The translations under genes and the position numbers were made by a program. From an uncultured Algibacter sp. (lineage in GTDB: Bacteria; Bacteroidota; Bacteroidia; Flavobacteriales; Flavobacteriaceae), in assembly GCA_947502405.1 (NCBI GenBank), contig CANMZT010000013.1, positions 1-64,000 of the forward strand: a stretch of 64,000 bases of DNA, read 5' to 3'. The notes below the pieces were generated by a model that saw only the letters and a list, made by a program, of their open reading frames with translations, was not told where the DNA came from and searched no databases. Shown here in pieces: positions 20,433-46,960 of this stretch (positions are counted from its first letter, which is position 1; every line of letters begins with the position of its first letter).

Positions 20433-20585
20433 GCGTTAGTCCCGATAGCTACCGGGAGAAGCGTCATGTTTGAAATCCTTTTTGCTTTTCGCAAAAAGAT
20501 TAAGTAGCGAAATATTCATATTCACGATTTCATTAATTTAAAAATAGTACCTATGAGTAAAGCTCGACCCTTGTGGTAACGCCCA
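20433..20585 (+). repeat. Dispersed intergenic repeat, copy A (umuC-umuD gap)
   Basis: Begins GCGTTAG, carries a nested palindrome (20440-20457), contains a CTTTTTGC/GCAAAAAG hairpin, and ends CGACCCTTGTGGTAACGCCCA. Same family as the copies at 27166, 29741, 47858 and 63435. Confidence 0.75.
20440..20457. repeat. 18-bp palindrome, copy 1
   Basis: TCCCGATAGCTACCGGGA, one base short of a perfect palindrome. It interrupts the GCGTTAG/GGATTG start of the dispersed repeat. Related copies at 27181 and 45099. Confidence 0.75.
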
Positions 20586-27166: not shown

Positions 27167-27207
27167 GGCGTTACCCGCAATCCCGATAGCTATCGGGACT
27201 AACGCAC
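27166..27207 (-). repeat. Dispersed intergenic repeat, short copy B
   Basis: Read on the minus strand: GTGCGTTAG, an 18-bp palindrome, then TTGCGGGTAACGCCC. It is a minimal form of the family, keeping both ends but not the interior, directly after the bioA stop. Confidence 0.7.
27181..27198. repeat. 18-bp palindrome, copy 2
   Basis: TCCCGATAGCTATCGGGA, a perfect palindrome at the GCGTTAG^GGATTG position of dispersed repeat copy B. Confidence 0.8.
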
Positions 27208-44662: not shown

Positions 44663-45010
44663 ATGAAAAAAGTATACTATTTAAAAACCTGTAATACCTG
44701 TACTAGAATTTTAAAAGAATTGAATTTATCTTCCGAATTTATTTTACAGGATATTAAGTCTGAACCTATAACTGTAAGACAAGTTGAAGCCATGGAAGCT
44801 TTATCTGGAAGTTATGAAGCGTTGTTTAGTAAACGTGCTAAACTTTACAAAGAAATGGATTTGAAAAACCAAGATTTATCTGAGCGCGATTACAAACATT
44901 ATATATTAGAACACTACACGTTTTTAAGTAGACCAGTTATTATAGTTGACGATAAGATATTTATTGGAAGCTCAAAAAAGACTGTTGAAGCTGTAAAAAC
45001 AGTTATATAA
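44663..45010 (+). CDS. ArsC/Spx-family thioredoxin-fold protein
   Basis: 115 residues from ATG 44663 (MKKVYYLKTCNTCTRIL); the upstream in-frame start at 44639 is not conserved-looking. Has the CNTC motif of Spx/ArsC (Cys-X-X-Cys) near residue 10 and the C-terminal LSRPVIIVDDKIFIGSSKK. The RxxR arsenate-site pattern of true ArsC is not evident. An arsenate reductase-like or redox regulator role is possible. Confidence 0.85.
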   Translation: MKKVYYLKTCNTCTRILKELNLSSEFILQDIKSEPITVRQVEAMEALSGSYEALFSKRAKLYKEMDLKNQDLSERDYKHYILEHYTFLSRPVIIVDDKIFIGSSKKTVEAVKTVI

Positions 45011-45035: not shown

Positions 45036-45128
45036 AAAACAAAAAAGTCTAACATTTCTGTTAGACTTTTTTTGCTCCTTCTCTAGGGCTCGAACCTATC
45101 CCGAAAGCTTTCGGGACTCTGATTAACT
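45036..45128 (-). pseudogene. Duplicated 3' half of tRNA-Asn plus its terminator, interrupted by a palindrome
   Basis: 45036-45098 is identical over 63 bp to 45430-45492 (terminator, acceptor 3' strand and T-arm of tRNA-Asn). 45117-45127 repeats the anticodon-loop and stem bases of 45498-45508. Between them the variable-loop bases are replaced by an 18-bp palindrome. No 5' half exists, so it is a displaced tRNA fragment. Confidence 0.9.
45099..45116. repeat. 18-bp palindrome, copy 3 (in the tRNA fragment)
   Basis: TCCCGAAAGCTTTCGGGA, a perfect palindrome replacing 5 bp of the tRNA variable region. Related to copies at 20440 and 27181. Confidence 0.8.
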
Positions 45129-45413
45129 GCCCTTACATTTATCTAGTAGCTTTTTGGTTAACTCTGGATACTTTAAAAAGTTTTCTATATAAACCTTACT
45201 TTTCATCTGTTTTATATGAGACTCAATTGCCAAAGCCTGAGATTTACTTGTACAAGCTATTACATAAAAAACCTCCCAATCCGTTGCTTTTCCTGTAAAT
45301 TTATAACTCTCAGCTTTTTTATGAAAAACCATCCTTTCTTCTAAATTAGTAGTAAAACCTACATAATACTTATTTAACTGATTTGAATGTAGAATATATA
45401 CGCATGGTTTCAT
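45123..45413 (-). CDS. Small GIY-YIG endonuclease in a tRNA-Asn-flanked cassette
   Basis: 96 residues from ATG 45413 (MKPCVYILHSNQLNKYYVGF); an ATG at 45449 would start inside the terminator repeat. The GIY-YIG motif appears as VYIL and YYVG, with the catalytic Arg in EERMVFHKK and metal-binding Glu in ALAIESHIKQM. It is a single-domain nuclease of the UPF0213 kind, with no separate DNA-binding domain. Its TAA stop lies in GTTAATCAGAG, which is tRNA-Asn anticodon-loop sequence. Likely a homing-type or selfish nuclease; a DNA-repair role is the alternative. Confidence 0.88.
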   Translation of the reverse strand: MKPCVYILHSNQLNKYYVGFTTNLEERMVFHKKAESYKFTGKATDWEVFYVIACTSKSQALAIESHIKQMKSKVYIENFLKYPELTKKLLDKCKGS

Positions 45414-45429
45414 TATCAAAAACTGTTTT

Positions 45430-45467
45430 AAAACAAAAAAGTCTAACATTTCTGTTAGACTTTTTTT
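45430..45467 (-). terminator. Terminator of tRNA-Asn
   Basis: Stem GTCTAACA-GAAA-TGTTAGAC flanked by A and T tracts, immediately after the tRNA 3' end. Duplicated exactly at 45036-45073. Confidence 0.85.
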
Positions 45468-45468
45468 G

Positions 45469-45542
45469 CTCCTTCTCTAGGGCTCGAACCTAGGACCCTC
45501 TGATTAACAGTCAGATGCTCTAACCAACTGAGCTAAGAAGGA
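45469..45542 (-). tRNA. tRNA-Asn (anticodon GTT)
   Basis: 74 nt without encoded CCA. Acceptor stem TCCTTCT/AGAAGGA, D-arm GCTCAGTTGGTTAGAGC, anticodon stem TCTGA/TCAGA with loop CTGTTAA (GTT), variable loop GGGTC, T-arm CTAGG-TTCGAGC-CCTAG. All four stems pair fully. Its 3' half is duplicated beyond the GIY-YIG gene. Confidence 0.97.
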
Positions 45543-45613: not shown

Positions 45614-46960
45614 TTACCCGAAAATTGCTTTATAAATATCATTCCCGTTTGCGAATAATACTAAAGCTATTAAAATAAAGAAACCAACCATTTGCGCATA
45701 CTCCATAAATTTGTCTCCTGGTTTTCTTCCAGATATCATTTCATAGAGTAAAAACATAACATGACCACCATCTAGTGCCGGTATTGGTAATAAGTTAAGA
45801 ACACCTAACATAATAGACAAAAAGGCTGTAATACTCCAAAACACTTGCCAGCTCCAATAGCTTGGAAAAATATCATAAATAGCTTTGAAGCCTCCAACAC
45901 CTTTGTAGGCTCCTGTACTTGGGGTAAAAATGGCTCCTAATTGATCCCAATATGAAACCAACTTATCTTTAGCCTTTCCTAAACCAACGGGGAAAGATTC
46001 AAAAAAACCGTATTCTCGAACATCATATTTGTAATAGCCTAAAGCTTCTAAAGTTTTTGGAGATGATGCTCCTGCAATTACTAATCCCAATTTGGCATCA
46101 TCACTAACGTTAAGAGGCATTTTAACTTCTAGCTCATCGCGCATTATGGTGGCAGAAACACTTTGACCTTTAAACTTTTCTAAAGCTAATTTTACTTCAT
46201 CAGCATATTTAGTTTTATAATCATTTAATCCTAAAATAATATCACCCTCTTTTAAACCACTTGACTTATTATAAGAAGTGTCTGGAATTTGCATAACAAC
46301 AAAAGGCTGTCTCAAACTAATAAATCCTTTTTCTTTTGAATCTAACAATTGAGCTAAAAAATCTTCTGGCATTTTTATAGTTGACTGAGAACCATCTCTT
46401 TCAATAAGAATTTCTTTTCCAAATAAAACCTTTTCTGAAATTTCAGAAAACGTCTCTATATTATCCCCATCTACAGCTAGAATTTTATCACCTGTTTTTA
46501 AACCTGCCTTATTTGCAACAGTACTTTCAATCTCTAAGCCATCTTTTATGTTTTCGTTTGGAAGGAAAGTGTCTCCGTAGAAATAACTCATCCCTATATA
46601 TATAAGAATTGCTAGTAAAAAATTAACCGTTACACCGCCTAACATAATAATTAGACGCTGCCACGCAGGTTTAGAACGGAACTCCCATGGTTGTGGTTCT
46701 TGAGCCATTTGCTCGGTGTCCATACTTTCATCAATCATACCTGCAATTTTAACGTAGCCCCCTAGTGGCAACCAACCTATACCATAAACGGTTTCTCCTA
46801 TTTTCTTTTTAAATAGGGAAAACTTAACATCAAAAAACAAGTAAAACTTTTCTACTCTAGTTTTAAAAGCCTTTGCAGGGATAAAATGCCCAAGTTCGTG
46901 CAAGATAATTAGCAACGAAAGACTAAGTAAAAACTGAGATATTTTTATAATGAACTCCAT
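45614..46960 (-). CDS. rseP: Site-2 intramembrane metalloprotease RseP
   Basis: 448 residues. Zinc motif HELGH at 21-25, second metal-ligand motif LLPIPALDGGHV near the C-terminus, four membrane segments. Two periplasmic PDZ-like domains lie between (VANKAGLKTGDKILAVDG and SGLKEGDIILGL). It cleaves anti-sigma factors or signal peptides within the membrane. Stands alone upstream of tRNA-Asn; dxr, a frequent neighbour, is not adjacent. Confidence 0.95.
   Translation of the reverse strand: MEFIIKISQFLLSLSLLIILHELGHFIPAKAFKTRVEKFYLFFDVKFSLFKKKIGETVYGIGWLPLGGYVKIAGMIDESMDTEQMAQEPQPWEFRSKPAWQRLIIMLGGVTVNFLLAILIYIGMSYFYGDTFLPNENIKDGLEIESTVANKAGLKTGDKILAVDGDNIETFSEISEKVLFGKEILIERDGSQSTIKMPEDFLAQLLDSKEKGFISLRQPFVVMQIPDTSYNKSSGLKEGDIILGLNDYKTKYADEVKLALEKFKGQSVSATIMRDELEVKMPLNVSDDAKLGLVIAGASSPKTLEALGYYKYDVREYGFFESFPVGLGKAKDKLVSYWDQLGAIFTPSTGAYKGVGGFKAIYDIFPSYWSWQVFWSITAFLSIMLGVLNLLPIPALDGGHVMFLLYEMISGRKPGDKFMEYAQMVGFFILIALVLFANGNDIYKAIFG

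Follow-up and report, generated by a model that had tools for sequence, protein, structure and literature searches.

A GIY-YIG nuclease gene in a rebuilt tRNA gene: a putative homing-like mini-element of Bacteroidota chromosomes

Why should the gene for a small GIY-YIG nuclease lie between an intact tRNA-Asn gene and a second copy of the 3′ half of the same tRNA? This arrangement, a unit of about 394 bp, stands in the window, the 64,000-nt stretch of an uncultured Algibacter sp. contig analysed here (the window's genome is G000; the other G-numbers denote surveyed genomes and the L-numbers loci that were read). The order given in the initial annotation holds: on the minus strand, the complete tRNA-Asn gene and its terminator come first, then a GIY-YIG gene for a 96-aa protein, and last another copy of the tRNA 3′ half with a terminator of its own (Table 1), although the tRNA call begins one nucleotide before the position, 45469, at which the gene had been said to start. 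The 63-bp direct repeat is perfect and ends exactly at the borders claimed for it, and the nuclease stop codon does lie inside GTTAATCAGAG, which duplicates anticodon-loop and 3′-stem sequence of the tRNA. The junction, by contrast, had been placed in the anticodon loop; in the displaced copy it falls in the variable loop and is marked by a hairpin that had been overlooked. As proposed, the ORF list gives the nuclease as the sole protein of the unit: a 42-aa ORF on the opposite strand is the only other frame of at least 40 aa, and the list contains no integrase gene of the kind that a tyrosine-integrase island would carry. A pattern search for the 44-nt core of tRNA-Asn, with up to 3 mismatches allowed, found it once each in G000, G002, G007 and G009.

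Table 1 Features of the tRNA-Asn locus and its flanks, in window positions
Feature	Position	Strand	Basis or remark
Intact tRNA-Asn(GTT)	45468..45542	-	tRNA call
Terminator hairpin of the intact tRNA, element side	45435..45466	-	inverted repeat
GIY-YIG nuclease gene, 96 aa, ATG at 45413, TAA at 45123-45125	45123..45413	-	ORF and Pfam; stop codon common to the displaced tRNA piece
GTTAATCAGAG, nuclease-side scrap of the displaced tRNA (anticodon loop, 3′ stem)	45117..45127	-	sequence comparison
18-nt perfect palindrome TCCCGAAAGCTTTCGGGA in place of tRNA nt 46-50 (GGTCC, variable loop)	45099..45116	.	
Displaced tRNA-Asn 3′ end, last 25 nt (T arm, acceptor strand)	45074..45098	-	
Terminator, displaced copy	45041..45072	-	inverted repeat
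Direct repeat copy 1, 63 bp, perfect	45036..45098	.	
Direct repeat copy 2	45430..45492	.	
ArsC-family flanking gene (PF03960)	44663..45010	+	directly after the tRNA terminator in the empty-site relative G007
M50 peptidase gene (rseP-like), flanking, upstream of the tRNA	45614..46960	-	used to locate the orthologous site

The protein belongs to the GIY-YIG superfamily (Pfam PF01541, E 9.3e-14; score 51.9 bits, cut-off 22.6). Residues Y6, Y17, G19, R27 and E64, which we take to be the catalytic tyrosine, the Tyr/Gly pair, the arginine and the glutamate of GIY-YIG nucleases, are invariant in 18 of 18 aligned proteins. Its nearest solved relatives in a PDB profile search are UPF0213 proteins (1zg2 and 1ywl, E 3.4e-12 and 6.5e-8), and SLX1 (7cq2, named in the PDB as a structure-specific endonuclease) is matched at E 1.6e-5. 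These PDB matches give no tRNA or mobile context; we know of no role for UPF0213 in mobility, and a literature search found no paper joining any two of UPF0213, YhbQ and GIY-YIG. The dN/dS ratios of four nuclease pairs (0.16, 0.23, 0.11 and 0.24; a fifth pair is identical and a sixth was left out for length) indicate that the gene is under purifying selection. Collections of viral contigs, phages and plasmids, each queried either with the A2 protein or with the nuclease at this locus, contained no relative of the nuclease that would point to a vehicle.

The initial annotation had called for a search for other GIY-YIG genes abutting tRNA genes, and such genes are found widely. From two surveys covering about 770 Bacteroidota genomes, 120 loci were read; at 103 of them a tRNA gene lies no more than 500 bp away, and the closest one is in every case on the strand of the nuclease. 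At the family level (E ≤ 1e-12), relatives occur in 51 of 397 genomes, at 77 places, all of which were read, and 58 loci; a tRNA lies within 500 bp at 49 of the 58, again with the nearest always on the nuclease strand, and at least six of the remaining nine (L044, L057, L071, L072, L078 and L079) contain displaced, hairpin-bearing pieces of tRNA. At the phylum level, a profile search was positive in 98 of 395 genomes at E ≤ 1e-20; a longer list supplied 68 loci, and at 59 of these a tRNA, each time on the nuclease strand, lies within 500 bp (54 of 62 without six loci that duplicate others). A named-genome collection, which overlaps the survey genomes and from which the A. marinivivus record was excluded, gave a tRNA within 500 bp at 21 of 25 loci, at 573 bp at one and none at three, with all 22 linked loci on the same strand. 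The tRNA-linked loci include some from Xanthomarina, Flavobacterium, Psychroflexus, Roseivirga, Niabella and Mucilaginibacter records. As a control, the 12 other PF01541 places of G000 (11 distinct) have no tRNA in the roughly 1.2–1.5 kb read on each side.

The association reaches down to the tRNA species. On a tree of 64 of the 77 family-level proteins, 11 labels that combine tRNA and side (six loci were labelled by hand) change 11 times, one more than the minimum of 10, whereas shuffled labels change 44.6 times on average and none of 200 shuffles was as low as observed; the deep forks of this tree are weak because few alignment columns underlie them. Nucleases of one clade in the family-level set go with one tRNA species and one side of it, and for the most part share the position of the hairpin. 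This agreement bears on another account of the locus, in which a tRNA 3′ half was duplicated by chance next to a GIY-YIG gene and is now decaying. Some nuclease copies are indeed broken by internal stops or truncation (L053, L066, L072 and others), but dN/dS ratios of 0.11–0.24, the fit between tree and tRNA labels, and the recurrence of tRNA neighbours across genera at 103 of 120 loci leave chance duplication with almost no credence.

Two layouts recur. In layout A, at most Asn, Met, Phe, Val and Asp loci and at others, an intact tRNA is followed by a terminator, the nuclease gene, a displaced 3′ piece and a terminator; in layout B, in a second Asn group, at Arg-CCT and at most Pro loci, a displaced 5′ piece precedes the nuclease gene and the intact tRNA. 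Among the 99 of 120 loci with an intact tRNA within 300 bp, a displaced piece could be anchored on both sides at 81, and 18 gave no two-anchor piece; the anchors were tRNA letters on either side, and pairing was not used for choosing the insert. At 77 of the 81 anchored junctions the insert contains a perfect hairpin stem of at least 5 bp, against 5.9 predicted by shuffles that preserve base composition only, not dinucleotides. Its usual form is TCCCG...CGGGA or CCCCG...CGGGG. The unit has a common composition, namely a tRNA half with its terminator (the 3′ half at the window's locus), the nuclease gene, a short scrap of the other half, and a hairpin where the displaced old half resumes. Flanking the nuclease after insertion are an intact tRNA and, across from it, the old half with its hairpin mark.

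At the family level the position of the hairpin is mostly characteristic of the clade. It replaces nt 46–50 in the main Asn group of layout A, 15–17 in Asn of layout B, 36–40 in Met, 23–26 in Arg-CCT, 57–61 in Phe and 29–45 (the whole anticodon arm) in Val, with L030, L043, L055 and L085 as exceptions to clade-specific positions. In the phylum-wide set, Asp has its hairpin mostly in the T loop, a hairpin takes the place of the whole anticodon arm at some of the Pro, Arg, Ala and Lys loci, and beyond the family the tRNA-Asn hairpins occupy other positions. One and the same tRNA species can bear it at different positions in different lineages (Asn at L043, L182, L186, L194, L199 and L200; Met at L055 and L145). 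In a set of 24 distinct anticodon-arm hairpins, which is biased in that most were found by a pairing criterion, pairs 1–4, 6 and 7 each occur with more than one Watson–Crick type. A variant arrangement is seen at L034 (1234-1320), where a full-length second tRNA-Asn with a variable-loop hairpin lies upstream of the intact tRNA with no nuclease between them.

The orthologous tRNA-Asn site was sought in ten genomes of the genus, nine of which are readable there (the G005 contig ends inside the flanking gene), and the element is present in two, G000 and G002. The predicted empty-site allele exists: in G007 the tRNA and a similar terminator read straight into the ArsC-family gene with no GIY frame, and empty alleles were found for tRNA-Met as well. 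G001, G003, G004, G006, G008 and G009 have the tRNA-Asn with different downstream sequence and no GIY frame. Presence and absence at an orthologous site, as in free-standing homing elements, are found at both tRNA-Asn and tRNA-Met. By eye, recombinase-like sequence directly follows the same tRNA-Asn in G004 (L022) and G008 (L027), so the site seems to be used by other integrating elements too.

Between G000 and G002 the nuclease has a dS of 0.351 and a dN of 0.055, and the neighbouring rseP-like, DinB-family and ArsC-family genes have dS values of 0.858, 0.931 and 0.548 (Fisher p against the nuclease 0.001, 0.002 and 0.20, respectively). Because the nuclease has fewer synonymous changes than the rseP-like and DinB-family genes, these values suggest that it was transferred or converted after the two species split; the signal is modest, as the ArsC-family dS does not differ significantly from that of the nuclease. 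The identity of the repeats had been taken to reflect either a recent event or gene conversion. A recent event no longer fits, because a second species has the same insertion at a nuclease dS of 0.35, and since the insertion is not new the perfect repeats more likely reflect homogenisation.

That same identity makes the tRNA-Asn locus uninformative about which half the element brought with it. Among 68 layout A rows in which both ends could be compared, the 46 nt from the intact and from the displaced tRNA end reach 85% identity in 42 and fall below it in 26; 13 further rows showed no displaced end. At the tRNA-Met locus of G250, in another genus, the two are only 57% identical. Here the terminators of two relatives with an empty site, G781 and G784, which have no GIY frame at this locus, match the displaced terminator of G250 at 32/34 and 31/34 positions and the tRNA-adjacent one at only 23/37 and 24/40; at this locus, then, the half and terminator beside the intact tRNA came with the element. 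A third relative, G787, has a terminator that resembles neither. The earlier proposal that the unit carries its own tRNA 3′ half and pushed the old one downstream is thus clear at tRNA-Met of G250, where the end on the rebuilt side is the element's and the far, displaced end is native, as in the fungal mitochondrial insertions discussed below; tRNA-Asn agrees in layout and is consistent with the same origin of its halves. A GIY gene stands beside tRNA-Met in 4 of 17 readable genomes of this other genus (G250, G019, G791 and G785). For tRNA-Val the outcome is equivocal: the displaced versus adjacent 40 nt of G002 gave 30/42 versus 27/46 against G000, 33/42 versus 33/44 against G007, 32/42 versus 28/44 against G008, 28/47 versus 28/48 against G009, 30/44 versus 28/43 against G003 and 24/47 versus 25/48 against G001; for G005, the displaced end scores better in one of three comparisons and the adjacent end in the other two. 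Right after tRNA-Val in G004 (L213) lies a 26-codon GIY-YIG remnant (E 3.2e-4), a decayed copy.

Could the displaced tRNA with its hairpin instead act as a working RNA, whether as regulator, as decoy or as signal for processing, so that the locus would serve the host or its defence and would not be a mobile element? Whole anticodon arms have been exchanged for hairpins of similar size (tRNA nt 29–45 or 28–44) with pairing retained, the nearest tRNA is always on the nuclease strand, and the nuclease is under purifying selection, all of which would fit such a function. However, the layout A pieces inspected by eye mostly lack the 5′ acceptor strand and so have no full tRNA fold, presence is patchy at both tRNA-Asn (2/9) and tRNA-Met (4/17) sites, and a search of defence models with 18 family members returned weak matches only (best E 1.1e-5). 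We consider a working RNA improbable.

Units also occur in head-to-tail arrays, with unit lengths that range from 315 to about 408 bp: five units of 391 bp at tRNA-Met in G131, five of 315 bp in G683, four of 322 bp in G578 and three of 358 bp in G654, together with six places spaced mostly 381 bp apart in G165 and unit pairs in G019, G299, G354 and G190. At L049 (1900-2000, reverse orientation), L223 and L224, remnants of the tRNA-Met 3′ end that contain hairpin-like inserts stand in repeated units with no nuclease gene; they are possible non-autonomous derivatives. A Phage_integrase gene lies beside a Met-type GIY gene in G131 (L059), and in G165 (C1 4439709-4459403) about 20 kb separates the intact tRNA-Asn from its displaced pieces; in both genomes it seems that islands inserted within or next to the arrays.

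Tyrosine-integrase islands at tRNA genes carry the tRNA end that they replace and displace the old one, which raises the question of whether the unit is the footprint of such an island, its attR being the tRNA 3′ fragment, with a GIY gene left over. The same tRNA genes do host islands, as the recombinase-like sequence in G004, the Phage_integrase gene in G131 and the 20-kb gap in G165 illustrate. Yet the unit differs from these islands in having a nuclease only: there is no integrase in it at tRNA-Asn, several clades displace the 5′ half, 77 of 81 junctions bear a hairpin, and the tRNA species follow the GIY tree. An integrase footprint is accordingly very hard to credit.

Palindromes of the junction type are not confined to tRNA genes. 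When as many as 3 mismatches are allowed, three matches to the pattern TCCCGAWAGCTWTCGGGA lie in the window, against 0.03 expected; the exact palindrome TCCCGAAAGCTTTCGGGA is unique in the genome, and a sister palindrome, TCCCGATAGCTATCGGGA, has 38 exact copies in G000 and stands in the window at 20440-20457 (one mismatch) and 27181-27198. Among 22 copies of TCCCGATAGCTATCGGGA inspected in 20 stretches (L121–L140), many lie inside a dispersed repeat, GCGTTAGGGATTG...GGTAACGC, and at least four of these sit between the arms GCTCCC and GGGAGC. Given this abundance of the sister palindrome, the hairpin type is not exclusive to GIY elements, and the junction hairpin may belong to a separate palindrome family. 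A REP/RAYT system was considered and rejected: the one PF01797 match in G000 lies within a 1274-aa frame, none lies in the unit, and there is no convincing transposase. Rfam, searched at gathering scores over 13 loci, returned tRNAs and one trp leader and nothing else. G000 also has six tRNA-free GIY-YIG genes of another subfamily (L001–L006) that are flanked by repeats, L003 and L005 being neighbours. Their inverted-repeat scores are 34 (L002), 31 (L005), 28 (L003) and 20 (L004), against a best of 20 and a median of 11 for 42 control ORFs; L001 and L006 have direct repeats instead, with scores of 51 and 26, for which there was no control set.

The reading that we favour, at a probability of roughly 0.7, is that the unit is a homing-like, gene-rebuilding mini-element of the bacterial chromosome, with a GIY-YIG nuclease as its sole gene and one specific tRNA gene as its site. 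The nuclease would break a tRNA gene that lacks the unit and thereby start recombination, and repair through the shared tRNA half would copy the unit in, formally as a Campbell-like insertion, so that an essential tRNA could be invaded without loss. The product would read native 5′ half, element 3′ half, element terminator, nuclease, scrap, hairpin, native 3′ half and native terminator, with layout B as its mirror image, and a single crossover or copy-in at the shared half would give the same product whatever the first break. Recombination between the repeated halves would presumably generate tandem arrays and occasional loss.

Within this reading, the hairpin would either spoil the cut site in the displaced copy or be the structure on which the nuclease acts. 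On the homing route, the nuclease would cut the unit-free tRNA gene and the hairpin would ruin the site in the displaced copy; the fungal mitochondrial insertions and the phage nuclease SegB offer precedents. A carrier nevertheless keeps its intact tRNA, only the displaced copy being interrupted, so that insertion does not destroy the site as it does in homing elements; the usual homing immunity is absent because the intact tRNA retains the presumed target. In a special case of the favoured reading, which we hold tentatively, the hairpin of the displaced half, and not the intact tRNA, would be the substrate of an SLX1-like nuclease, breaks there would excise or amplify units through the repeated halves, and free units would re-enter by crossover at the tRNA half. 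Cutting of the donor in this way accounts better for the persistence of the insert as a hairpin and for a carrier's tolerance of an intact tRNA. It also fits the near constancy of the hairpin (77/81), the retention of pairing as its sequence varies (24 anticodon-arm hairpins), the profile matches to UPF0213 (3.4e-12) and SLX1 (1.6e-5), the tandem arrays, and the inverted repeats around three of the six tRNA-free GIY genes, which score above all controls (28–34 against 20, with one gene tying at 20). Against it, most of the anticodon-arm hairpins were picked by a pairing criterion, no excised form was seen, and palindromes of the same family stand at sites with no GIY gene in view.

A wider extension is possible, although we would not bet on it: the units may form a new class of hairpin-ended mini-transposons of Bacteroidota. 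The target of an SLX1-like GIY-YIG nuclease of about 80–100 aa would then be a TCCCG...CGGGA hairpin set into one of the loops or arms of a copied tRNA gene, and the nuclease would use tRNA homology to move or amplify units while the host always keeps one whole tRNA. The palindrome-bracketed sister GIY genes elsewhere in G000 would be a tRNA-free branch, and such nucleases would spread part of the palindromic repeats of the phylum.

Two ingredients of the favoured, gene-rebuilding reading are already known in principle, namely an endonuclease ORF that carries the end of the gene it enters, in fungal mitochondria, and the cutting of tRNA genes by a GIY-YIG enzyme, SegB. In the fungal mobile ORFs or mORFs (for example at atp6, in Allomyces and Glomus sp.), an endonuclease ORF has been inserted with its own copy of the downstream part of the gene, the native end has been displaced downstream, and foreign origin was inferred by comparison with relatives, according to the available text (PMC3630166). 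The carried gene end and displaced native end are common to mORFs and the GIY-tRNA unit; mORFs differ in lying in protein genes of mitochondria, in the Glomus atp6 case with a LAGLIDADG enzyme, and no hairpin is mentioned in the available part of that source (PMC3630166). The GIY-tRNA unit, by contrast, occupies bacterial chromosomal tRNA genes, displaces either half, has a junction hairpin, forms arrays and encodes a nuclease of only about 80–100 aa.

SegB of T-even phages is, in the accessible portion of its description, a free-standing GIY-YIG homing endonuclease that cuts inside tRNA genes and is enriched beside phage tRNA genes; in phage T6 it causes a unit of tRNA plus segB to be amplified in tandem by way of microhomology, and its 83 mapped cleavage sites are reported with no preference for particular tRNA isotypes (PMC13096335). 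GIY-tRNA arrays resemble this amplification, but SegB is phage-borne and the same portion of text describes no carried tRNA half or hairpin junction (PMC13096335), whereas the present nuclease clades are each tied to one tRNA and reside in bacterial chromosomes. In the available text of a survey of the GIY-YIG superfamily, ‘Bacteroid’ is absent and ‘tRNA’ appears three times (PMC1564403). In a literature search that covered subscription journals thinly, no account came up of GIY-YIG units that rebuild tRNA genes of bacterial chromosomes, of layouts with either half, or of a junction palindrome or hairpin.

A mini-element of this kind would be a very small self-spreading system, in which one protein of 80–100 aa lives in essential tRNA genes by means of a spare half, phylum-wide. 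It would offer many natural nuclease–tRNA pairs in which target reading by a bare GIY-YIG domain could be studied, would explain the hairpin-bearing tRNA fragments found beside tRNA genes, and is a candidate source for some palindromic repeats of Bacteroidota genomes. One further observation concerns the lineages with a T-loop hairpin, which are those of Asp, Phe, Gly and Leu: by our own comparison, the SegB motif RAWTSGAAC, as given in the available text (PMC13096335), reads as the reverse complement of a T-loop sequence.
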